Shown: piece after piece, positions 2,607-30,472 of the stretch
How the letters are laid out: each line of letters starts with the position of its first letter
Numbering within the stretch: position 1 is the stretch's first letter
NCBI GenBank assembly: GCA_902200405.1
Contig: CABIKN020000067.1
Span: forward strand, 1-33,045
Length of the DNA stretch: 33,045 nt
Reading direction: 5' to 3'
Source: Candidatus Roizmanbacteria bacterium
GTDB lineage: Bacteria; Patescibacteriota; Microgenomatia; UBA1406; GWC2-37-13
Position numbers and translations under genes: made by a program
The notes under the pieces: generated by a model
Told to the model about the DNA's origin: nothing
Seen by the model: the letters and a program-made list of their open reading frames with translations, nothing else
The model's database searches: none

Positions 2607-3734
2607 TTATATTTTAATATATTTTCGGGCTTTTATGGCAATAGGTAATAATTCATCAAGGTCATCCCCAGTCACAGTAATATGACCCATCTTTCTTTCC
2701 GGTCGAACTTCACTTTTTCCATAAATATGGATAAAAGTATTAGGAAGATCTTTTAGTTTTTCTAGTCCAGTAACTTTTACCTTTCCTTTTCTTTCTCCAA
2801 GAATATTTATCATAACAGCTCCAGGTGTAATCAAATCGGTTTTTCCCAAAGGCATTCCGGTGATGGCGCGAATATGTTGCTCAAACTGTGAAGTTATTGA
2901 AGATTCAATCGTATGATGGCCGCTATTGTGAACGCGGGGGGCAATTTCATTGATGATAATTTCATCATTTTTAGTTAAGAACATTTCTATGGCAAAAACT
3001 CCAGCTCCTCCTAATTTTTTCAAAACTTCAGTGGCGATTTTTTTTGCTTTTTCTTGAACGGTTTTTTCCACTTGAGCTGGAGCTTTGACAATATGACAGA
3101 TATTATTTTTGTGAATCGTTTCTACAACAGGATAAGTACTAACTTCGCCTTTGATATTTCTGGCAGTAACGACAGCAAGTTCTTTAATGAAAGGGACGAA
3201 TTTTTCAACATAAAGTAATCTTCCCTCAAGTTTTTTTAAAGCTTGGTCAATTTCTTTTTCGTTTTTTACTAAAGCGTTTCCTCTTCCGTCGTATGCATCA
3301 AATCGGGCTTTCAATAAAATCGGATAACCAAACTCTTTCGCTACTTTGATGATATCTTCTTTATTGCGAACAGAAAGAAAATCGGCAACTGGAAGACCAT
3401 ATTTTTTTAGAAAAGTTTTTTGCTTTAATTTATCTTTTATTATTGAAAGTGTTTCACCAGTTGGATTAACGATGACTCCTGTCTTTGAAATTTCATCAAG
3501 GATTAAGTCGTCAGCCAGTTCAATTTCAAAGGTGAGAAAATCAGAAATTTTTGCCAGTTTTTTAATTGACTCTCGGTTATTAAAGTTACCGATAATTTGT
3601 TTTTGTGCCACTTGCCCGGCCGGAGAATTTGGGGTCGGATCCAAAACGTTTACTACAAAACCAAGTTTATTGGCGGCAATTGTCAGCATCCTTCCTAATT
3701 GACCTCCGCCAATAATTCCAATTCTATTTTTCAT
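2607..3734 (-). CDS. purK: N5-CAIR synthetase (ATP-grasp)
   Basis: The 375-residue protein is the PurK ATP-grasp enzyme, which makes N5-CAIR from AIR, bicarbonate and ATP. It has the N-terminal nucleotide fold IGGGQLGRM (residues 7-15), the ATP-grasp lysine strand [18 protein letters not shown] near 155, the acidic metal-binding part [25 protein letters not shown] near 255, and the typical C-terminal subdomain ending near HITVTGDD. Its length is normal for the family. It sits between purB and purE, two bases upstream of purE. The ATG at 3732-3734 lies just before a palindromic repeat. Confidence 0.96.
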
Positions 3735-3740
3735 AGTTGG

Positions 3741-3833
3741 TTTGTTGTCATCCCCTTGAAGAAGGGGATCCAGTGCTTTATGTCTGGATTCCCGCCGGAG
3801 CCTGCCCTCGACTCCGATCGGGGGCGGGAATGA
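3741..3833. repeat. Palindromic repeat pair at the purB 3-prime end
   Basis: A TTGTCATCCCC...GGGGATCCAG hairpin (3745-3773) is followed by CTGGATTCCCGCC...GGCGGGAATGAC (3784-3833), which contains a longer loop with CCCTCGACTCCGATCGGGG. The right part encodes the last residues of PurB (VIPAPDRSRGQAPAGIQT) and its TAA stop. It belongs to the same family as 2055-2124. Confidence 0.8.
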
Positions 3834-5220
3834 CTCGAATTATCTTAACTAATTTTTTTGCTCTTTCCGGAGCGTCGCCAATGTGATTTTCAACTTCCAT
3901 TAATTTTTCTAATTGATTTTTACTTAGATATTCACTGACTAATCTATCACTTAATAATAATTCCATCATTGGATTTTTTTTACCATTTTGAATATCGGTC
4001 CAGGCAATCATAGAATTAATCCTTAAAGCTTCGTGCATTTCCTGACGGTCAGCACCTTTTTTAACTGCTTCCAAAATTATGGATTCGGAGGCGGCGAATG
4101 ATGCGTACTGTCTTAAATTAAAACTAATTCGATCTCGATTAATAACTAATCCACTGATGATTTTTTCAGCAGTTATCAAAATCTGATCGGTTGTCAAAAA
4201 AGCTTCGGCAATCACAATTCGTTTATTTGCCGAGTCATCAAGAGTTCTTTCTAAATAAGAAAGAGAAGCATTTTCACCGGCTACTTGAGGGAGGGTAGAA
4301 ACATACCTAGCAAGGGAGCAGATATTTTCGCTACTGATAGGATTTTTTTTGAAAGGCATTGCTGAGCTGCCTACTTGATTCTTTCCAAACGGCTCCGACC
4401 ATTCTCCGTAAAGAGGTGATTGAAGAATTCTTAGGTCTCCTGCGAATTTGGCAAGAGCCGAAGTAACCATCACTAAACTATTCAAAACAATAAAATCAAA
4501 AAGTCGGGGATAGACCTGACCACTGATTAGAATGGCGTCAATTCCCAAACTTTTCATTACTTTATTTTCTAGTTGATCGGCAGATAACGATTTATCTTTT
4601 AATAACTCTTTATAACTGGCGGCTGTTCCAACCGCTCCTTTCATTCCTTTTCCTTTAATATTTTTTTTAGCAAACTGGATAAATTCATAAGCAGTTAATA
4701 GATCCTGTGCATAAAAAGCGAGTCGATAACCAACCGTTGTTGGTTCGGCTGGCTGTAAATGAGTATAGCCTAAGCAAGGGAAGTCAGCATACTCGTCAAT
4801 TTTATCAGCTAGCAAATTTAAAATAATAATAACTTTTTTCTCAACAATTTCCAGTGCCTCATGAATTCTTACCATATCAGTGTTATCAACAATGTCCATA
4901 CTGGTCGCGCCCAAATGAATTTTGCCACCACCGATCTTTGCTTTTTCAGCAAATTCTTTTATAGCGGCAACTACGTCATGCTTGGTCTCTTTTTCCAGTT
5001 CAAAGATTTTTTCTATATCAATATTATTTTCATTATTTTTCAAATCTTCAAGTTCTTCCTTACTGACTAAACCTGCTTGATGTTGAGCTTCAGCGAGGGC
5101 AATCCAAATTTTTCGCCAGAGTTCGTATTTATGTTTTTCGCTGAAAATTTTTCGCATTTCATCGGATCCGTAACGCCAAGTAAGGGGAGACAGATAGGTA
5201 TTAAAACTGAAGTTGATCAT
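3778..5220 (-). CDS. purB: Adenylosuccinate lyase
   Basis: The 480-residue protein belongs to the fumarase/aspartase superfamily. It carries the fingerprint GSSAMPFKKNP near residue 290, THLQPAEPTTVGYR near 155, and the TSMDIVDN segment near 106. Adenylosuccinate lyase removes fumarate from SAICAR to give AICAR, and from adenylosuccinate to give AMP. The first function fits the operon; the second would be needed even with salvaged purines. The last ~18 residues come from a palindromic repeat that overruns the natural end of the gene. Another such hairpin lies just upstream of its start at 5231-5261. Confidence 0.96.
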   Translation of the reverse strand: MINFSFNTYLSPLTWRYGSDEMRKIFSEKHKYELWRKIWIALAEAQHQAGLVSKEELEDLKNNENNIDIEKIFELEKETKHDVVAAIKEFAEKAKIGGGKIHLGATSMDIVDNTDMVRIHEALEIVEKKVIIILNLLADKIDEYADFPCLGYTHLQPAEPTTVGYRLAFYAQDLLTAYEFIQFAKKNIKGKGMKGAVGTAASYKELLKDKSLSADQLENKVMKSLGIDAILISGQVYPRLFDFIVLNSLVMVTSALAKFAGDLRILQSPLYGEWSEPFGKNQVGSSAMPFKKNPISSENICSLARYVSTLPQVAGENASLSYLERTLDDSANKRIVIAEAFLTTDQILITAEKIISGLVINRDRISFNLRQYASFAASESIILEAVKKGADRQEMHEALRINSMIAWTDIQNGKKNPMMELLLSDRLVSEYLSKNQLEKLMEVENHIGDAPERAKKLVKIIRVIPAPDRSRGQAPAGIQT

Positions 5221-5230
5221 AGGTTATTAT

Positions 5231-5261
5231 AGTCTGGATTCCCGCCTACGCGGGAATGACA
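5231..5261. repeat. Single palindromic repeat between purB and the second purP
   Basis: The sequence CTGGATTCCCGCC is followed after a few bases by GCGGGAATGACA, forming one hairpin of the CATTCCC/GGGAATG family. It fills most of the 46-base gap between the two genes. It has no U tract. Confidence 0.75.
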
Positions 5262-5266
5262 TCATT

Positions 5267-6388
5267 TTACGTTAATATTTTAACAAAATCTTTTAACTTT
5301 AGTGCTTCCTTTATTTCCATAGCAACTCTCTGACCAACCGAAACAGGCTCGCCGTAAAGATATCCGCTGTATGGAGTTGATGAAATCCCAGGCGACCCGG
5401 GCATGCGGGGAGAAATATCAATGACGACGATATCTTTTTTTGGCGGGCCGGCGGTAATGATACTTTGTAAAGCAAAAGGGCCGATGATTCCGGGAACGAA
5501 CAATTCCTGACTGGTTTTGACAAATCTTTCTCCGAGCTCAAAAGCCTTTTCCAACATTGATTCAAGGACGGTGACGGCAATGTGTCCGGCCTCTTCATAT
5601 TTAACACTGATTTTTTTAGAAACTTCTGTCTGATAAGAAGAGGGGATCTTAAGTAAACCTTCGATGTTAGTTTGCCTTCTCATGTCAGTTCCGAGTAACT
5701 CTAACCGGTCAGGAATAGGGGAATAGAAAAAATTAAAATTAACTTGAACGCCGACGATAAATTCTTCAATCACTGCTTGACCTAATTGTTCTTCAGTAAA
5801 AATACCTTGTTTTAATTTTGCATCAATTTGTTTTTTGTAGTCCTGATAATTTTCTGCTAAGAAAAAAGCTCGTTCAAAATTGCGGGTTTTTTCTTGAACT
5901 TTGATTAAACATAGACAATCAATCTCTTTTGGATTTTTAAATTGTTTAGAATATTTAATTCCTGCTTTTTCCAGCAAATAATATTGATTTTCGGCCCGAC
6001 CTCGTTCTTCAATTTTAAGCAGTTGACGGTTGCCAAACATGGGGACTTCAAAATCATTTTCGATTGCTTCGTAGTTAAAATTTAAGTAAGCCTCGAACGA
6101 ACGGTTGGGAATAAATATTGAATTTTTGTCAATTAATATTTTTTGAATTTCCGGTTTAAGTAAATCAGAGAATTTACTAAGAGTTATAGTTTCGTCAACA
6201 CAACCTAATTTTCCATTGGTTTTATAATATTTTTCGTAAGTTTTTTCCCGGCCAATTTCTGTGATAACCAAAGTTTTAAATCCAAGATTTTTGGCGCCCC
6301 GGCAAACATCAAGAGCACTATGAGAACCGAGAGTGGCGATCGTAAGATTAGATAAATTGTAGGAATTTAAAATTTGTTTGATATTCAT
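5267..6388 (-). CDS. Divergent PurP-like ATP-grasp protein (second paralogue)
   Basis: This 373-residue protein is homologous along its length to PurP, the archaeal FAICAR synthetase. It has TIATLGSHSALDVCRGAK near residue 17, VPMFGNRQLLKIEERG near 118, FFYSPIPDRLELLGTDMRRQTNIEGLLKIP near 220 and a C-terminal GEPVSVGQRVAMEIKEAL. It differs where the first paralogue is canonical. PHGSF reads PNRSF, and the glycine-rich ATP loop (AAGGKGYF in the neighbour) is replaced by QEKTRNFERAFF. This is the pattern of the PurP2 group of archaea, whose role is not settled. It may have a different substrate, or act with the first paralogue. It lies downstream of a fold-back element. Confidence 0.85.
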   Translation of the reverse strand: MNIKQILNSYNLSNLTIATLGSHSALDVCRGAKNLGFKTLVITEIGREKTYEKYYKTNGKLGCVDETITLSKFSDLLKPEIQKILIDKNSIFIPNRSFEAYLNFNYEAIENDFEVPMFGNRQLLKIEERGRAENQYYLLEKAGIKYSKQFKNPKEIDCLCLIKVQEKTRNFERAFFLAENYQDYKKQIDAKLKQGIFTEEQLGQAVIEEFIVGVQVNFNFFYSPIPDRLELLGTDMRRQTNIEGLLKIPSSYQTEVSKKISVKYEEAGHIAVTVLESMLEKAFELGERFVKTSQELFVPGIIGPFALQSIITAGPPKKDIVVIDISPRMPGSPGISSTPYSGYLYGEPVSVGQRVAMEIKEALKLKDFVKILT

Positions 6389-6414
6389 ATTTAATTTTTA
6401 TTAAAGCTCGGTTC

Positions 6415-6470
6415 GATATTTTTTGAACGCCACACCCCAATGGGGCCCCTGGCGATTTTCAAAAAACATC
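6415..6470. repeat. Fold-back element A between the purP genes
   Basis: A nested inverted repeat. TTTTTTGAA pairs with TTCAAAAAA, CGCCA with TGGCG, and the core is CCCC-AAT-GGGG. The GC-rich core inside AT arms stands out in this genome. It lies 26 bases upstream of the second purP start. Confidence 0.7.
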
Positions 6471-6505
6471 TTCACCTTGCTTTACTTATAAAAATTAAAA
6501 GCGAA

Positions 6506-6556
6506 GATATCAAATTTTTTTCGGTTTGTTGTTTTCCGATAAAAAATTTCAATATC
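6506..6556. repeat. Fold-back element B between the purP genes
   Basis: A second hairpin in the same gap: GATATCAAATTTTTTTCGG faces CCGATAAAAAATTTCAATATC across a short loop. It lies just after the stop of the first purP and could stabilise that mRNA end. There is no strong U tract after it. Confidence 0.6.
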
Positions 6557-6564
6557 AAGCTTTT

Positions 6565-7563
6565 CTAATCTAACACTAAATTTAATTTATTTTCCTTAAT
6601 TGCATTTTTAATTTCACGGGCTATCCTTCGTCCCGTGCTCATTGGTTCATTATAAAGTAAATCTGAATAAGGCGAGCCTTCAATAAAAAGATTAGTGCCA
6701 GCCACAATCCGGGCAGAGATTTCAATCACATGAAATTTTTGATCAGGAGTAATCATCGTTTCCAGACAAAATGGACCAAATAATCCTTGGGGACTTATCA
6801 GTTCTTGAGACTTTTTAATGACTTTTTCTCCCATTTCGTAAGCTTCCGGTAACATTGACTCTCTTAAAACCAAGGGACTGTTGGCGACGACGACGTAACT
6901 TGGATCAACATTGAAGGGAATTCTTCCTAAGGCATCAACATTAGTTTCATATCTTCTATCCATACTTAAAATTTCCAAAGTTTTAGTCAAAGGACTATAA
7001 AAATAGTGAATATAAAGAGGGACCCCAATGATATATTGTTGAATAATAAACTGTTTATCTTTAAAAAGCTTTATTTTCTCAGTTAAATCTTGTTTGTTAT
7101 TAACGAGAAAATATCCTTTACCGCCGGCGGCTCCAAAAGATTTTATTATGACCGGAAATCCCACATCTTCAATATTTTTAAATTCTTTCGGAGTATTGAT
7201 CCCTGATTGCTTCAACCATTCTCCCTGTTTTACACGATCAAACTCAAAGTCAAGTACTTTTTTATTACCAAAATACGGAAGAGACATTTTTTTATTTCCT
7301 TCCACGCCAAGATAGGCGACGAAAGAACCGTGTGGAATAACGACAACATTTTTATCAATTAATTTTTTTTCAATTTTTGGAAATTCGGAAAAGGCATTAA
7401 CTCCTACGATTTCATCAATGAAAGGATATCTTTTATAGAAAGAAATTTGTTTATTGAGAGCAATAACCAGAGTCTTAAAACCTTCGTCCTTAGCACCTTT
7501 TAAAATCTGAAGCGCCGAGTGGCTACCGAGAGTGGCAATAGTATATTGATTATTATTTTTCAT
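6565..7563 (-). CDS. purP: FAICAR synthetase, archaeal PurP type
   Basis: The 332-residue protein matches archaeal PurP, an ATP-grasp enzyme that formylates AICAR with free formate and ATP. The motifs are TIATLGSHSALQILKGAK at residues 8-25, VVVIPHGSFVAYLG near 75, PVIIKSFGAAGGKGYFLV near 140 (the ATP loop), YFYSPLTKTLEILSMDRRYE near 188, GPFCLETMI near 265 and EISARIVAGTNLF near 283. All segments that are conserved in the characterised methanogen and Pyrococcus enzymes appear intact. It overlaps the purQ stop by one base, so it is part of the operon. In most bacteria this step is done by PurH with 10-formyl-THF; no purH is present here. Confidence 0.92.
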   Translation of the reverse strand: MKNNNQYTIATLGSHSALQILKGAKDEGFKTLVIALNKQISFYKRYPFIDEIVGVNAFSEFPKIEKKLIDKNVVVIPHGSFVAYLGVEGNKKMSLPYFGNKKVLDFEFDRVKQGEWLKQSGINTPKEFKNIEDVGFPVIIKSFGAAGGKGYFLVNNKQDLTEKIKLFKDKQFIIQQYIIGVPLYIHYFYSPLTKTLEILSMDRRYETNVDALGRIPFNVDPSYVVVANSPLVLRESMLPEAYEMGEKVIKKSQELISPQGLFGPFCLETMITPDQKFHVIEISARIVAGTNLFIEGSPYSDLLYNEPMSTGRRIAREIKNAIKENKLNLVLD

Positions 7564-8333
7564 TATTTAAAATAGTTTACCCCATTTTTAAAAATTTGTA
7601 ACCCCGGCCCGAATTTTGGAAACTTTTCACCATCTCTTAATAATTTTTCTTTTAATAAAGGCCAGTTAGGGAGTTGGGTAAAAAACATCGCCCGTTCTGG
7701 ATGAGGCATCAGGCCAAAAATTCTTTTGCTTTCATCGGTAATACCGGCAATGTTTTCCAAAGTCCCGGTCGGATTAATATTTGAATATTTTAAAACGACT
7801 AAATTTTTTTTATTTATTTCATTCAATACTTCTTTATTAGCAAAAAATTTACCTTCACCGTGAGCAATGGGTAAGGAAATTTCTTTAATTCCGGCTAACC
7901 AAGGAGTGTCACTGATAACTTTAAAATCAAACCAACCAGTCGTATAACGAGTCGACTCATTTGGCAAAAGAGCCACTTGGCGTTCTCCATATTTTTTGTT
8001 GAGAGCAGGGACTAATCCTAAATTAACAAGAACTTGAAAACCATTACAAATTCCAATAACGAGCTTATCTTTTGTTACAAATTTTGAAATATTTTCCCAA
8101 AGGTGATTTCTTAATTTTAAACCGTAGGCATTTCCGGAGCCGGTATCGTCTCCATAAGCAAACCCACCTGGAATAGCCATAATCTGAAAATCATCTAACA
8201 ATCTTTTATTTTTTATTAAATCGTTTATATGAACTATTTGACCTTGACCGCCGGCCAGTTCAAAAGCGTACTTTGTTTCGTCTTCGCAGTTCAAGCCGTA
8301 ACCGGATAAAATTAGAACTTTTGGTTTAATCAT
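7563..8333 (-). CDS. purQ: FGAM synthase, glutaminase subunit
   Basis: The 256-residue class I glutamine amidotransferase supplies ammonia to the synthase subunit that turns FGAR into FGAM. The nucleophile is Cys96 in GICNGFQ, and the rest of the triad is His211 and Glu213 in MPHPERA. PGGFAYGDD (55-63) is the oxyanion strand region. It is longer than the ~225-residue Bacillus form and resembles the ~260-residue form that accompanies PurSL proteins, with an insertion around GYGLNCEDET. A structured element lies 14 bases upstream of its ATG, between it and purSL. Confidence 0.95.
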   Translation of the reverse strand: MIKPKVLILSGYGLNCEDETKYAFELAGGQGQIVHINDLIKNKRLLDDFQIMAIPGGFAYGDDTGSGNAYGLKLRNHLWENISKFVTKDKLVIGICNGFQVLVNLGLVPALNKKYGERQVALLPNESTRYTTGWFDFKVISDTPWLAGIKEISLPIAHGEGKFFANKEVLNEINKKNLVVLKYSNINPTGTLENIAGITDESKRIFGLMPHPERAMFFTQLPNWPLLKEKLLRDGEKFPKFGPGLQIFKNGVNYFK

Positions 8334-8444: not shown

Positions 8445-11324
8445 TTAATAATCTTTAAATGTCGACTTATAAGCTTTTTCTATTTCTTTAAGATTTAGAT
8501 CAACTACTTTTTTATTATCTAATCCATTAATAATTAATCGTTGGTTATTTGTTACTTTCCCAATTTCTTTAATCGCATTTTCTTTCATAATTTTTTCAAA
8601 TTCTTTTTTATTTTTTGGGTTGATTGTTACTAATATTCTACCTTGAGATTCAGAGAATAGAGTAAAATCATTACGTGTTTGTTTTCCATGAAATTTATTA
8701 AGAGAAATTTCAATTCCTAATTTTCCAGCAAGAGCGGTTTTTACTAAGGCCACTCCAAGACCTCCTCGAGTAACGCTAATAGCGGATGAAATTAATTGTT
8801 TTTGGCTGGCTTTGAAAAAATCTAAATAAAGTTTTTTATTTTTTTGGCCGTCTACTTTAGGAACGTTGTTACCTACGTATTTATTCATAGCAAAATATTC
8901 TGACCCGCCCAGCTCATCTTTGGTTTCACCAAGAATATATATTAAATCACCTGGAAATTTAACATCGATCGAAACTGTTTTGAAAACATCTTCAATAATT
9001 CCAATAGAAGAAATCAAAAGTGTTGGCGGAACCGATATTTTTATAGAATTACCTTTTTCGTCATAACCTTTAAAGTCATTGAACATGCTGTCTTTTCCGG
9101 AAATAAAAGGAGTTTCGTAAATTTTGGCAAAATCATAACAGGCTTCGGCAGCTTTTTTTAGTTGATAAAGTCTTTGTGGATCATTAGAACTGCACCAGCA
9201 GAAATTATCAAGTAAAAATATTTTATCAGGATTAGTGCCTGCGGCAACTAAATTTCTGATTGCCGTATCAATACTGGCACCCGCCATTTGGTAACAGTTA
9301 ATTTCGCTATAGCTTGGATAAAGACCTTGTGAAATAGCTACGGCATGAGAAGAATTAAAAATTGGTCTTACAACGGAAGTTTCGCCATTGATTTTTCCTT
9401 CACCTTGAAGTGGTTTAATAACAGAATTTGCTTGAACTTCATGATCGTACTGAGAGGATATAAATCCAAAACCGGTGACATTTAATCTTTGCATCATCTT
9501 CAACAAAACTTCATTAAGATTTTTTTGTTGTGGAATAATAGGTTCTTTAAAAACATTTTTTACAGGAACTGTTTTCATTGGGCGGACCGGTAATCCGTCG
9601 TGTAAAAATCTCATATTAATGTCCATAATAGTTTTTTTGTGATAGTTGACGACACAACGACCGCTGTTATTAAATTTGCCAATTATTGTTGCCTCAACAT
9701 CGCGGCTAATCATTAATTCTGAGAATTTTTTCCATTTATTTTTCGGGACTGCCAAAGTCATTCTTTCTTGAGATTCGGAAATCCAAACTTTCCAAGGTTC
9801 AAGTCCCGGATATTTTAAAGGTACTTTTTCTAAATTAACCAAACAGCCGTTTGATTCTTTAGCCATTTCGGCGACCGAACAAGAAATCCCACCAGCGCCG
9901 TTATCAGTGATACTGTTGTAAAGTTTTTGGTCACGGGCTTCCTTCACAATTGCGTCGCTTAACTTTTTCTGGGTGATTGGATCACCGATCTGGACAGCTC
10001 CAGCAGGGCTTCCAGAAGATAAAGCTTCGGAAGAAAAAGTGGCCCCGTGAATTCCATCTTGTCCAACTCGGCCACCAATAACAACAACATAATCGCCGGG
10101 TCTAGCTTTTTTAATAGCGGATGATTTTACAGGTAATAATCCCATGGTTCCAACAAAAACCAGAGGTTTACCTTGATATTTATTATCAAAATATAAAAAC
10201 CCTTGAGGAGTTGGGATACCGGAACAGTTACCTCCGGAGTTTACACCGGCAACCACTCCGTCCATTATTCTGCGAGGGGAGAGTAATGGTTGTTTTTTTT
10301 CTTGATCACGAAAAAGAGGTGATTTTAAACTTGGATAAGCAAAACAAAATCCGAAGTAATTGACAATTGGTTTGGCTCCCATATCAAATCCGATGGTATC
10401 CCGATTAACTCCAACAATTCCGGTGATCGCTCCGCCAAAGGGATCAAGGGCGGATGGGCTATTGTGAGTCTCAACTTTATGGGAAATAATATAATCTTTA
10501 TCAAATTTAAAAGCACCGGAATTATCTGTAAATACAGAAGTACATAAGTCACGGGATTTTCTTTCTCTAATCTCCACCGTAGCTCTCTTAATATAATAAT
10601 TAAATAAGCCGTCTTTAATCTCGTCGATAGGATCGGCAAAAATTGTATGATGACAATGTTCCGACCATGTCTGGGCAATTGACTCAAGTTCAATATCAGT
10701 CGGATTTCGGCCTAATTTATCAAAGTGTTTTTTTATAGCTTTCATATAGGAGAGGTCAAGGGCAAGGGGACCGCGGGAAGACCCGTCTTTATTTTTGATT
10801 CCTGATTTTCCAATCGCAGTTAATTCTTCGTCAGAGATATTTAAATTAACTTCATCGACTTGATTTGCCGAAGTTAGTTTTACTTGTGGTGCAATTTTAT
10901 TCATTCCATTATCTTTCAAATATTGTTTTTGACTTTTAAAATGAATTCGGTTGATTAAAGGATTAATTAATCCTTGACTAATTTTTATAACATCTTTTTC
11001 CTCAAGCTTTCCGTCGATGAGTAATAATTGAGAAGAAAAAACATCCTCATCCCCTACAAATTTTATTTTTAACTGGTCTTTGATTATTTCCTTGACGGTA
11101 TTGGCAACATTGTCAGTAACGCCGGGTAAGAAACCCGTCTCGATTGCCCAGGTGAATTTACTAATCAAAGTAGGTTTGTTTATTGTAAATTTTTGATAGA
11201 CTGGATTAGTTAAAGATAAGGCAATTTCTTTTAGTTGATTTTTATTTAGGTTTTTTTTGATCGTGTAGACATTAATTGCTTGAGCAATTGATATTCTTGA
11301 AGAAACCTCTATTCGATTAATCAT
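8445..11324 (-). CDS. purL: FGAM synthase, PurS-PurL fusion
   Basis: About 959 residues from the preferred start at 11324. The ATG there (MINRIEV) has GGAG seven bases upstream; an in-frame ATG at 11336 would add four residues. It makes FGAM from FGAR, ATP and ammonia from PurQ. The first ~170 residues are PurS-like, with two similar halves, and the rest is PurL: SQTWSEHCHHTIF near 228, VETHNSPSALDPFGGAI near 290, VNSGGNCSGIPTPQG near 370, DNGAGGISCS near 485. Length and the separate purQ match the PurSL class, between the small 740-residue PurL and the 1300-residue single-chain enzyme. It overlaps the purD stop by eight bases. Confidence 0.94.
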   Translation of the reverse strand: MINRIEVSSRISIAQAINVYTIKKNLNKNQLKEIALSLTNPVYQKFTINKPTLISKFTWAIETGFLPGVTDNVANTVKEIIKDQLKIKFVGDEDVFSSQLLLIDGKLEEKDVIKISQGLINPLINRIHFKSQKQYLKDNGMNKIAPQVKLTSANQVDEVNLNISDEELTAIGKSGIKNKDGSSRGPLALDLSYMKAIKKHFDKLGRNPTDIELESIAQTWSEHCHHTIFADPIDEIKDGLFNYYIKRATVEIRERKSRDLCTSVFTDNSGAFKFDKDYIISHKVETHNSPSALDPFGGAITGIVGVNRDTIGFDMGAKPIVNYFGFCFAYPSLKSPLFRDQEKKQPLLSPRRIMDGVVAGVNSGGNCSGIPTPQGFLYFDNKYQGKPLVFVGTMGLLPVKSSAIKKARPGDYVVVIGGRVGQDGIHGATFSSEALSSGSPAGAVQIGDPITQKKLSDAIVKEARDQKLYNSITDNGAGGISCSVAEMAKESNGCLVNLEKVPLKYPGLEPWKVWISESQERMTLAVPKNKWKKFSELMISRDVEATIIGKFNNSGRCVVNYHKKTIMDINMRFLHDGLPVRPMKTVPVKNVFKEPIIPQQKNLNEVLLKMMQRLNVTGFGFISSQYDHEVQANSVIKPLQGEGKINGETSVVRPIFNSSHAVAISQGLYPSYSEINCYQMAGASIDTAIRNLVAAGTNPDKIFLLDNFCWCSSNDPQRLYQLKKAAEACYDFAKIYETPFISGKDSMFNDFKGYDEKGNSIKISVPPTLLISSIGIIEDVFKTVSIDVKFPGDLIYILGETKDELGGSEYFAMNKYVGNNVPKVDGQKNKKLYLDFFKASQKQLISSAISVTRGGLGVALVKTALAGKLGIEISLNKFHGKQTRNDFTLFSESQGRILVTINPKNKKEFEKIMKENAIKEIGKVTNNQRLIINGLDNKKVVDLNLKEIEKAYKSTFKDY

Positions 11325-12606
11325 ATTTATCTCCAAATATTAATCCATTTTTTCCGATGTCTTTACGGTATTGCATACCTTTAAAATGAACGGCTTTTTT
11401 TCCGATTTGTTGATAGACTTTTTTAATTGTTTCTTCTAAAGTTTTTTCTGAAGCGTTGACAGATAAAACCCGACCACCATTAGTAATAATTTTTTTATCA
11501 ACTTCTTTTGTGCCGGCGTGAAATACCTGAACTTCTTCATCTTTAATTTTATCTAATCCAAAAATTTGATCTCCCTTTTTATATTCACTCGGATAGCCGG
11601 CTGAGGTAAGGACAACGCTGACGGAAAAACCTTTTTTGAAAACTAATTTTTTATTTTTCAATTTATTTTTTTGCTGAGCGAGAAAAATTTCAACCAGATC
11701 CGATTCTAACTGCATCATCAAAGGTTGGGTTTCCGGATCGCCAAAACGGCAGTTATATTCCAAGACTTTTGGTCCCTCTCGGGTCAAAATTAAACCAGGG
11801 TAGAGAATTCCCTGATAGAGACAACCTTCTTTTGCCATTGCTTTGATTGTTGGGGTAACGATTTCCTTTTCGATCTGTTTGATAAGTTTTTTGTCTAAAA
11901 AAGGAACCGGAGCATAGGCGCCCATTCCGCCGGTGTTTGGTCCCTGGTTATTTTCGATTAATCTTTTGTGATCCTGAGAAGGAAGAAACGAAAGAAAATC
12001 TTTTCCATCGGTTATCACCATAAATGATATTTCCTGACCATATAAACATTCTTCAATAATTATTTTTTCTCCTGACCCGTCAAAAATTTTATCAACCATT
12101 AACAGACTCAAAAATTTTTCTGCCTCTTTTCTATTTTTGCAGATGGCCACTCCTTTTCCTAAAGATAAACCATCAGCTTTTATAACCCGAGGATACTTGG
12201 CGTGCTGTAAATATTTGGTTGCCTCACCAAAATTATTAAAAGCAAAATATTCAGCGGTCGGTATTTTATATTTTTTCATTAACTCTTTTGAAAAAGTTTT
12301 AGAGCCCTCTATCTGGCTTGCTTTTTTAGAAGGGCCGAAGATCTTTAACTTTTCTTTTTTAAAGATGTCAGTAATTCCCAAAACCAAAGGAGTCTCTGGG
12401 CCAACAACAGTTAGATCAATTTTTTTATCCTTAGCAAATTTTACTAATTTATTTATATCTATTACATCAATGGGAATATTCTCTCCGATTAATTTTGTTC
12501 CGGGGTTACCTGGGGCAAAATAAATCTTATTTACCAAAGGAGACTGTTTTATTTTCCAACCCAAAGCATGTTCCCGTCCTCCGGAACCGATGATTAATAT
12601 TTTCAT
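11317..12606 (-). CDS. purD: GAR synthetase (ATP-grasp)
   Basis: The 429-residue protein is phosphoribosylamine-glycine ligase, which makes GAR from phosphoribosylamine, glycine and ATP. It has IIGSGGREHALGWKI at residues 4-18, GPSKKASQIEGSKTFSK near 93, VIKADGLSLGKGV near 140 (ATP-grasp), GPNTGGMGAYAPVP near 222 and LEYNCRFGDPETQ near 280. Length is normal. Its start lies 20 bases after a structured element and it overlaps the start of purSL, which implies coupled translation. Confidence 0.97.
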   Translation of the reverse strand: MKILIIGSGGREHALGWKIKQSPLVNKIYFAPGNPGTKLIGENIPIDVIDINKLVKFAKDKKIDLTVVGPETPLVLGITDIFKKEKLKIFGPSKKASQIEGSKTFSKELMKKYKIPTAEYFAFNNFGEATKYLQHAKYPRVIKADGLSLGKGVAICKNRKEAEKFLSLLMVDKIFDGSGEKIIIEECLYGQEISFMVITDGKDFLSFLPSQDHKRLIENNQGPNTGGMGAYAPVPFLDKKLIKQIEKEIVTPTIKAMAKEGCLYQGILYPGLILTREGPKVLEYNCRFGDPETQPLMMQLESDLVEIFLAQQKNKLKNKKLVFKKGFSVSVVLTSAGYPSEYKKGDQIFGLDKIKDEEVQVFHAGTKEVDKKIITNGGRVLSVNASEKTLEETIKKVYQQIGKKAVHFKGMQYRKDIGKNGLIFGDKYD

Positions 12607-12846: not shown

Positions 12847-13446
12847 TTAATTACATAACTTAATTAATGACTCAACATAAATTTTATTTTCTTTTTTCTT
12901 TAATCTTTTATAAAGGCTTTCAACAGTATCGCCTGGTAAAATTTTTTCAAAACAACGATTTAAAATTTTTCCAAAATCAAATTCATTGGATAAAAAATGA
13001 ACAGTCGATCCGGCATAAGTGGCTTTTTTATCCAAAAAGTTTTGAATGGCAACATCAGTTAATCCTCCTCGGTTCCACATGCCCTTTGTCCCATCTGGAT
13101 TTAAAGCAACCCCATTCATGGTATCTGGGATCAGTCCGGGATGGAGATTAAGAATTTTATTTTTAAAAGTATCTATTAAAGATTGAGGAATGATTAATTT
13201 CCAGCCAGCCAGCGCGATTAAATCAACTTGTTGGTCAATTAAAAGTTTTTTCAAATCATCTTTTTTTTCAACAACAATCGTTGAAATATTATTTTTTTTA
13301 GCTCGTTGTAAACCAAAAGCATCTGGAGAACTACTTACAACAATAGCGATTTTAGCTTTTAGTTTATCGGTTTCAATGGCGTCAATAATGGCCTGAAGAT
13401 TTGTTCCTGTTCCAGCATCGGAAATTAAAACAGCTAATCGTTTCAT
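12847..13446 (-). CDS. purN: GAR formyltransferase
   Basis: The 199-residue protein transfers a formyl group from 10-formyl-THF to GAR. The catalytic Asn and His are in ILNLHPGLIPD near residue 93, and the catalytic Asp in EFDFGKIL near 155. SDAGTGTNLQAI (9-20) is the phosphate loop. Between these it carries a longer loop than the E. coli enzyme (DTMNGVALNPDGTKGMWNRGG, split by the motif), a variant form of the family. It follows purF by eight bases. Its presence means the cell is expected to have 10-formyl-THF for step 3 although PurP uses formate for step 9. Confidence 0.94.
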   Translation of the reverse strand: MKRLAVLISDAGTGTNLQAIIDAIETDKLKAKIAIVVSSSPDAFGLQRAKKNNISTIVVEKKDDLKKLLIDQQVDLIALAGWKLIIPQSLIDTFKNKILNLHPGLIPDTMNGVALNPDGTKGMWNRGGLTDVAIQNFLDKKATYAGSTVHFLSNEFDFGKILNRCFEKILPGDTVESLYKRLKKKENKIYVESLIKLCN

Positions 13447-13454
13447 AATATTTT

Positions 13455-14924
13455 TTAACTAATCGTTTCAAAGACATCTTTCCTAAAACCGCCCTTAACT
13501 GACATTGGATATTTTCCATCGAAACACGAGGTACAAAGTCTGTTTGACTTAACTCTTGATGCTTTTTTTAATCCTTCCAAACTCAAATAGGCCAAAGAGT
13601 CTGCATCAATAAATTTTTTTATTTCCTTTACTGACATATGGGAAGCAATCAATTGTTTTTTATCTGGAGTATCAATCCCAAAATAACATGGATCGGTAAC
13701 TGGAGGAGAACAGACTCGAATATGGATTTTTTTTGCACCGCAATTTTTTAACATTTTTACTATTTTTTTCATCGTTGTTCCACGAACAATCGAGTCATCA
13801 ACGATAATAATTCTTTTTCCTTTGACAATTTCTCTTAAGGGATTAAATTTTAGTTTTACACCCATTTCACGAATATGTTGTTCGGGTTGAATAAAAGTCC
13901 GACCAATGTATCTATTTTTAATAAGGACTTCGCCGTATGGAATTCCGGAAGCTTTGGAATAGCCAATCGCCGCCGACGTTCCAGAATCAGGCACAGCGAC
14001 CACCATATCAGCCCCAACGGGTGATTCATGAGCTAATATTTCCCCTGATCTTTGCCTGACTTGGTGGACGAGTTGCTTGTTAAAAATACTATCAGGACGG
14101 GCTAAATAGACATATTCAAAAAGGCAGAAACTTTTTTTTGTAGATTTTACCTTACCAACAACTTGTATTCCTTTTTCATCAATAGCGATTATTTCTCCAG
14201 GAGCGATTTCTCTTATAAATTTTGCCCCAACTGTATCTAGTGCACAAGTTTCAGAACAGACAATATATGCATCGTTTAATTTACCTATAACTAAAGGTCT
14301 AAAACCATAAGTATCCCGGAAAGCAATTAATTTATTTTTAGTTAAGGTGATCATACTAAAGGCGCCTTGAAATTTTTTAAAAGAAGAAAGAATTTTTTCT
14401 TCCCAATTTTTGCCCGTTGAATTTTTAATTACCCAACCCATAATTTCTGTATCACTTGTTGAAGTTAGTTTGATGTCAGGGGGAAGATTTTTGGCTAAAT
14501 CCATTGCATTAATAATATTACCGTTGTGGGCTAAAGCAAACTCTTCATTTTTCATATTTAAAACTACTGGTTGAACATTACAAAGCTTATTACCTCCAGT
14601 AGTCGAATAGCGAGTATGAGCAATTGCCGCAAAGCCTTTAAGAGAGTTTATTTTTTCTTCATTGAAAACTGAAGAAACTAAACCTAATCCCTTGACACTT
14701 TTTAAATTTTTTCCGTCAGTGACCGTAATACCCGCCCCCTCTTGACCTCGGTGCTGAAGGCTATATAAACCAAAAAAACTAATTCTAGCAACGTCGACCC
14801 CTTTACCATAAATTCCAAAAATACCACACTTGTCTCTGAGAGGTTTATTACTATTTTCTTCAGCCTTTAAAAAAACCCGCTCTGAGCGGGTAGTGCTTTT
14901 AACTGAGAAATTTTTTTTCCTCAT
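13455..14924 (-). CDS. purF: Amidophosphoribosyltransferase
   Basis: The 489-residue first enzyme of the pathway makes phosphoribosylamine from PRPP and glutamine. Cys33 in DKCGIFGIYG is the glutaminase nucleophile, which normally becomes the N-terminus. The glutaminase domain runs to ~235 (LQHRGQEGAGI, HTRYSTTGG, LAHNGNI), then the PRTase domain with IIIVDDSIVRGTT near 372 and the C-terminal Cys pair LCTSCFDGKYP. The 32-residue stretch before Cys33 is longer than the 11-residue Bacillus propeptide, and its codons contain a terminator-like hairpin. No later ATG/GTG/TTG precedes Cys33 in frame, so the start at 14924 is the only one. It heads the operon. Confidence 0.95.
   Translation of the reverse strand: MRKKNFSVKSTTRSERVFLKAEENSNKPLRDKCGIFGIYGKGVDVARISFFGLYSLQHRGQEGAGITVTDGKNLKSVKGLGLVSSVFNEEKINSLKGFAAIAHTRYSTTGGNKLCNVQPVVLNMKNEEFALAHNGNIINAMDLAKNLPPDIKLTSTSDTEIMGWVIKNSTGKNWEEKILSSFKKFQGAFSMITLTKNKLIAFRDTYGFRPLVIGKLNDAYIVCSETCALDTVGAKFIREIAPGEIIAIDEKGIQVVGKVKSTKKSFCLFEYVYLARPDSIFNKQLVHQVRQRSGEILAHESPVGADMVVAVPDSGTSAAIGYSKASGIPYGEVLIKNRYIGRTFIQPEQHIREMGVKLKFNPLREIVKGKRIIIVDDSIVRGTTMKKIVKMLKNCGAKKIHIRVCSPPVTDPCYFGIDTPDKKQLIASHMSVKEIKKFIDADSLAYLSLEGLKKASRVKSNRLCTSCFDGKYPMSVKGGFRKDVFETIS
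14869..14891 (-). terminator. Terminator-like hairpin inside the start of purF
   Basis: On the minus strand ACCCGCTC-A-GAGCGGGT is followed directly by seven T residues, the form of an intrinsic terminator. It begins 33 bases into the purF reading frame, about 40 bases after the predicted transcription start. It would act as an attenuator unless ribosomes on the early purF codons prevent its folding. Confidence 0.7.
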
Positions 14925-30354: not shown

Positions 30355-30472
30355 TCCCGGCTACGACCTACTTTCCCTTCATCTTTCGAAGTTAGTATCA
30401 TCGGCGCTGACTCGTTTCACGACCTTGTTCGGGATGGAAAAGGGTGGGACCAAGTCGCTCAAGTAACCAGGA
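30355..30472 (-). rRNA. rrf: 5S ribosomal RNA
   Basis: 118 bases with the 5S pattern: the first ten bases TCCTGGTTAC pair fully with the last ten GTAGCCGGGA (including G-U pairs). CCATCCCGAACAAGG is the conserved loop B/C part, and GAAAGTAGGTCG lies near the end. Nine T residues after CA complete a terminator. No 16S or 23S gene lies nearby. The promoter TTGTTT-17-TATACT (30510-30481 region) overlaps the start of the divergent PH-domain gene. Confidence 0.93.

Follow-up and report, generated by a model that had tools for sequence, protein, structure and literature searches.

The closest described relatives of the proteins reported here are the archaeal PurP proteins, which fall into two clusters (Brown et al. 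2011, PMC3261824). Members of cluster I carry the P-loop (K/R)GG(K/R)G and an asparagine at position 258, and members of cluster II, whose function was given as unknown, have His258 and a loop that is two residues longer and lacks the P-loop glycines. In the same work, His27, Ser266, and Arg314 were described as touching the substrate, with His27 and Arg314 as formyl-group contacts. Reference proteins are MJ0136 (2r7k, Methanocaldococcus jannaschii), a characterised FAICAR synthetase, and PF1517 (2r84, Pyrococcus furiosus), and, on the cluster II side, the archaeal PurP-like proteins PF0421 and AF0256. In archaea such as M. jannaschii, PurP would be expected to work alongside PurO, an IMP cyclohydrolase with an Ntn-hydrolase fold. 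The same two steps are covered by PurH, an unrelated, folate-dependent, and bifunctional AICAR formyltransferase/IMP cyclohydrolase. For archaea that have neither PurO nor PurH2, the question of which protein serves as IMP cyclohydrolase dates back at least to 2011, when some correspondence was noted in archaea between the possession of two PurPs and the lack of PurO/PurH2, and when it was speculated that one of the two might be the missing enzyme (PMC3261824). As late as 2019, the crenarchaeal IMP cyclohydrolase was given as unidentified (Hunter et al., PMC6797443), and no later paper settling the identity of the archaeal enzyme was found among the open-licence literature. PurP and PurO were called exclusive to Archaea in a 2014 survey (PMC4177761).

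The locus studied here lies in a bacterium. The window, that is, the whole stretch of 33,045 nucleotides analysed, comes from Candidatus Roizmanbacteria and also encodes sigma-70-like, BipA, and Era-like GTPase proteins; its closest named relatives are Roizmanbacteria-type metagenome-assembled genomes (MAGs), with 85 to 88% identity in PurP-II. Profile matches gave a minus-strand purine operon in the order purF-N-D-L-Q-P1-P2-B-K-E-C. It comprises purF (13455-14924, TIGR01134 over cut-off), purN, encoding a folate-dependent GAR formyltransferase (12847-13446, TIGR00639 1.9e-39, PF00551), purD (11317-12606, TIGR00877 over cut-off), purL (8445-11336, 963 aa, TIGR01736 5.6e-156), purQ (7563-8333, PF13507, TIGR01737), the two purP genes, purB (3778-5220, TIGR00928 over cut-off), purK (2607-3734, TIGR01161 over cut-off), purE (2089-2604, TIGR01162 over cut-off), and purC (1073-2038, PRK12607 over cut-off). 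In relatives of this genome, purM lies near the operon. The match in PurL begins only at residue 198, and the roughly 197 residues ahead of it are possibly a fused PurS-like part. A glycerophosphodiester phosphodiesterase gene (361-1065) follows purC after 7 bp on the same strand. The window also holds a 5S rRNA gene (30355-30471) and gave no match to 16S or 23S rRNA.

The region 5267-7563 is filled by two complete minus-strand open reading frames, purP-I (6565-7563, 332 aa), which purQ directly precedes, and purP-II (5267-6388, 373 aa). The 176-bp gap between them (6389-6564) had no Rfam match at E<=1, and no riboswitch or other RNA element in the window matched above its family's gathering score at the operon. 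PurP-II and purB are separated by 46 bp, with no purH in between, and purP-II is the sole gene of the operon stretch in the window to which no pathway role is assigned.

PurP-I has the DUF1246 and DUF1297 domains (PF06973, 4.8e-63; PF06849, 1.2e-40), and its closest sequence match in the PDB is PF1517 (3e-98). Its AlphaFold2 model (pLDDT 88.8) retrieved PurP crystal structures first in a Foldseek search, with 2r84_A as the best match (E 2.8e-40), and it shares the two domains and the fold of MJ0136 and PF1517 (TM ~0.85-0.91). The P-loop (G144-A-A-G147-G148-K-G150) is retained, as are H15, N228, S236, E281, R285, and N291; H15, N228, S236, and R285 are the equivalents in this protein of the cluster I contacts His27, Asn258, Ser266, and Arg314, which it has in common with MJ0136 and PF1517. 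Within the signature loop, AGGKG, an alanine replaces the first K/R. Unlike the two archaeal enzymes, PurP-I is bacterial, is encoded in a bacterial operon together with the folate-dependent PurN, and falls below the equivalog cut-off of NCBIfam, and its activity is a predicted one; both proteins of the pair scored below the cut-offs for AICAR-formate ligase (364.6 versus 580 and 294 versus 556 bits). By analogy with MJ0136, PurP-I would use formate and ATP to formylate AICAR.

PurP-II contains the same two domains (PF06973, 1e-60; PF06849, 4.9e-41). Its top PDB sequence match is MJ0136 (4.8e-75), and its model (pLDDT 88.6, best PDB match 2r7m, E 6.2e-38) keeps the PurP fold. The loop is two residues longer and lacks the P-loop glycines (VQEKTRNFERAFF, compared with SFGAAGGKGYF in PurP-I). 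H23, S277, and R328 are kept, whereas Asn258, Glu310, and Asn320 of MJ0136 are replaced by H269, D324, and G334. When 100 PurP-I and 113 PurP-II sequences were aligned and numbered after MJ0136, His27, Ser266, and Arg314 were kept in both groups, and changes to the P-loop glycines, Glu310, and Asn320 were confined to PurP-II. Position 258, which contacts the carboxamide, was asparagine throughout PurP-I and histidine throughout PurP-II (fraction 1.0); the role ascribed to this residue follows from homology to one crystal structure. Retention of the substrate contacts together with changes in the ATP features of PurP-II only would fit a ribotide-binding partner that no longer needs ATP. PurP-II shares His258, the charged loop longer by two residues, and the loss of the glycines with PF0421 and AF0256. 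Unlike these archaeal proteins, its counterparts belong to bacteria (Patescibacteria, Chloroflexota, and Dependentiae MAGs), and in the lineage of the window its presence is paired with the absence of both PurH and PurO.

These results bear out a preliminary description of the locus, which had assigned every PurP motif, including the ATP loop, to the gene after purQ (PHGSF and FGAAGGKGY, both present in 6565-7563) and had read the next gene as a PurP homologue with a changed ATP loop (PNRSF and QEKTRNFERAFF in 5267-6388). It had also called the pair archaeal in type and likened it to an archaeal "PurP1/PurP2" split, which corresponds to the published division into clusters I and II (PMC3261824).

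We then considered the ancestry of the pair. In a maximum-likelihood tree of 74 sequences, PurP-I and PurP-II lay on opposite sides of a branch with 100/100 support that was recovered in all bootstrap trees, and PurP-II of the window fell within the separate cluster II clade. Forcing the two proteins of the window together cost 519 log units (p-AU 2.1e-74), so that a single recent bacterial duplication, named in the preliminary description as an origin that would overturn its reading, is rejected. Inside each cluster, the relatives of the window, from Microgenomates lineages, grouped with Chloroflexota MAGs. PurP-I and PurP-II distances were correlated across 34 genomes (Mantel r 0.49, 0 of 2000 permutations), indicating that the two genes largely travelled together, as had been proposed, and the genes were adjacent in most genomes, with exceptions in several archaea and some bacteria. 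The pair is therefore archaeal in type, ancient, and jointly inherited. Frames of 588 to 777 aa in Chloroflexota that resembled PurP-I/PurP-II fusions were dismissed as overlapping open frames in GC-rich DNA.

The absence of purH, first noticed in the window, extends to the whole genome (93% complete, 85 contigs). A search with family profiles gave no PF01808 match and no PF07826 match, hence neither PurH nor PurO, and the single MGS domain found lies in a 1070-aa frame, the size of CarB, so that a stand-alone PurH2 was not found either. PurH (PF01808), PurO, and stand-alone PurH2 were likewise absent from all seven nearest relatives carrying the pair (G380-G385, G391). Since loss of PurH entails loss of its IMP cyclohydrolase as well, these genomes are left with neither known enzyme for ring closure, and the pathway genes F, N, D, L, Q, B, E, and C are nonetheless retained in the PurH-less operons. 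Among 50 named genomes with cluster II proteins, the bacteria of which had been picked mostly because purH was not visible beside the pair, 21 had no PF01808 match: these include the seven relatives, two Gottesmanbacteria, a Dependentiae genome, some DPANN archaea, and three genomes of 4 to 5 Mb, two of them named as Chloroflexota. PurO was found in none of the 50, nor in any of the 38 PurP-bearing genomes sampled within the phylum.

A purH that is present but was missed, either in the remaining 7% of the assembly or because it is too divergent for the profiles, is in our estimation very improbable. The incompleteness of the genome and its 85 contigs leave room for it, and divergent PurH proteins do occur in the phylum (matches down to ~1e-30), as do split ones: in Curtissbacteria, PurH is encoded away from the operon by separate genes for the AICARFT (~325 aa) and for a divergent cyclohydrolase (~200 aa; L158, L159, L163, L164). 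However, the same search detected these split and divergent forms, and absence from all eight genomes of the clade at once makes an assembly gap implausible. Moreover, the slot occupied by purH in Daviesbacteria-type sister operons (purP1-purP2-purH-purB) is reduced here to the 46-bp gap before purB, and the MGS searches returned only frames of CarB size and fusions to other enzymes. The extra MGS frames of three relatives were rejected as hidden PurH on this ground. In these Roizmanbacteria-type genomes, an MGS domain is fused C-terminally to argininosuccinate synthase and to a class II (D/K/N) tRNA-synthetase-like protein (L153:2923-4542 and 4756-6297; L154:2092-3582 and 4569-6257; L155:1132-3594; L156:1382-3001), where it presumably confers allosteric regulation as in CarB.

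Across the phylum, the picture is different. PurP occurred in 38 of 380 sampled genomes (~10%), nearly always as two copies that were mostly adjacent, and PurH accompanied it in 35 of these 38, compared with 44 of the 342 genomes without PurP (Fisher p 5e-24, with genomes treated as independent); in the PurP-bearing genomes it often adjoined the pair. The suggestion that formate takes over the formyl step at AICAR thus agrees with the window genome, which lacks PurH, but it does not hold as a general rule, as the presence of the pair alone does not mean that formate replaces folate. In most of its owners the pair accompanies PurH, and in a few lineages it is the only visible substitute for PurH. 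Where full-length PurH proteins encoded beside the pair were inspected, their cyclohydrolase motifs were mostly intact, and the four catalytic residues were kept in the cyclohydrolase half of the Curtissbacteria PurH, so that no decay of the kind that would favour a take-over by PurP-II was found there.

This association could mean that the pair carries out a different purine-ribotide reaction, PurH being the real AICAR-to-IMP enzyme and the PurH-less lineages relying on salvage or on an enzyme not yet seen. Most Methanosarcinales are reported to have a full PurH together with two PurPs (PMC3261824), and 16 PurD-bearing genomes of our sample lacked PurH, PurO, and the pair alike, showing that a gap between AICAR and IMP can have other causes, including salvage or incomplete MAGs. 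Nevertheless, we regard this reading as unlikely. In eight related genomes that lack PurH, the pair is still surrounded by a de novo operon, which would be costly and lead nowhere if the pathway halted at AICAR; PurP-I has kept the features listed for MJ0136, a FAICAR synthetase that has been characterised; and the co-occurrence may only mark purine prototrophs, given that 34 of the 38 PurP-bearing genomes had a strong PurD match. One PurD match in a same-class genome (G318:C6:15435-15998) fell in an open frame given as 24,306 aa long, probably masked sequence or another artefact.

On the basis of genome context and residue switches, we tentatively favour a division of labour that we consider slightly less than evenly probable, by which the operon would make IMP without PurH. 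PurP-I, an ATP-grasp ligase, would convert AICAR, formate, and ATP to FAICAR, and PurP-II, an ancient paralogue that appears to have given up ATP binding and kept the ribotide pocket, would close the ring of FAICAR to give IMP. In ring closure, the carboxamide nitrogen attacks the formyl carbon. The invariant histidine of PurP-II is predicted to sit at this carboxamide. PurP-II was rated a candidate cyclohydrolase because it is the one operon gene lacking a pathway assignment, keeps the substrate contacts, no longer has the ATP loop, and carries its invariant histidine at the carboxamide, and because ring closure is ATP free. The pair would then be the only known route from AICAR to IMP left in the Roizmanbacteria-type lineage. 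Counting against this model is the retention of PurH by most PurP-bearing genomes, with largely intact cyclohydrolase motifs where these were inspected; selection there has evidently not let the pair stand in for PurH.

The adjacency and joint history of the two genes are also what would be expected if PurP-I and PurP-II formed one hetero-oligomeric FAICAR synthetase, with PurP-I as the ATP-grasp engine and PurP-II as a non-ATP-binding partner or regulatory subunit. The IMP cyclohydrolase would then be a third protein, encoded at another locus and so far unrecognised. Taken singly, archaeal Ib and II proteins reportedly lacked AICAR formyltransferase activity, and almost any nucleotide-monophosphate-binding enzyme was suggested to be able to serve as IMP cyclohydrolase (PMC3261824). 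Yet the PurH-less operons inspected contained no consistent gene of unknown function, the change in PurP-II affects the substrate carboxamide contact, which goes beyond the needs of a purely structural subunit, and the genes are not adjacent in the archaeal and bacterial exceptions mentioned above. We therefore judge a hetero-oligomer to be rather unlikely, though less so than a different reaction.

Ring closure by PurP-II, if extended to the whole of cluster II, would make these proteins a third, unrelated family of IMP cyclohydrolases, derived from an ATP-grasp formate ligase through loss of ATP binding and the Asn-to-His switch and forming with cluster I a folate-free AICAR-to-IMP module in archaea without PurO/PurH2 and in several bacterial lineages. 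This wider proposal is plausible, and we hold it a little less firmly than the one for the window. The families themselves are known; a bacterial pair in a genome from which every known cyclohydrolase is absent is not described in the open-licence literature, with earlier notice elsewhere being possible. The occurrence of the pair in Patescibacteria, Chloroflexota, and Dependentiae MAGs departs from the view of PurP as exclusively archaeal, and the second, ATP-loop-less PurP provides a candidate, open to testing, for a purine enzyme that has long been missing. As the pair described here is presumably mesophilic and all genes of its operon other than the candidate have assigned roles, it would lend itself to a clean test of the 2011 guess in E. 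coli. In one PurH-less relative, folD (methylene-THF dehydrogenase/cyclohydrolase; L077:9107-9958) lies directly after purP-II.
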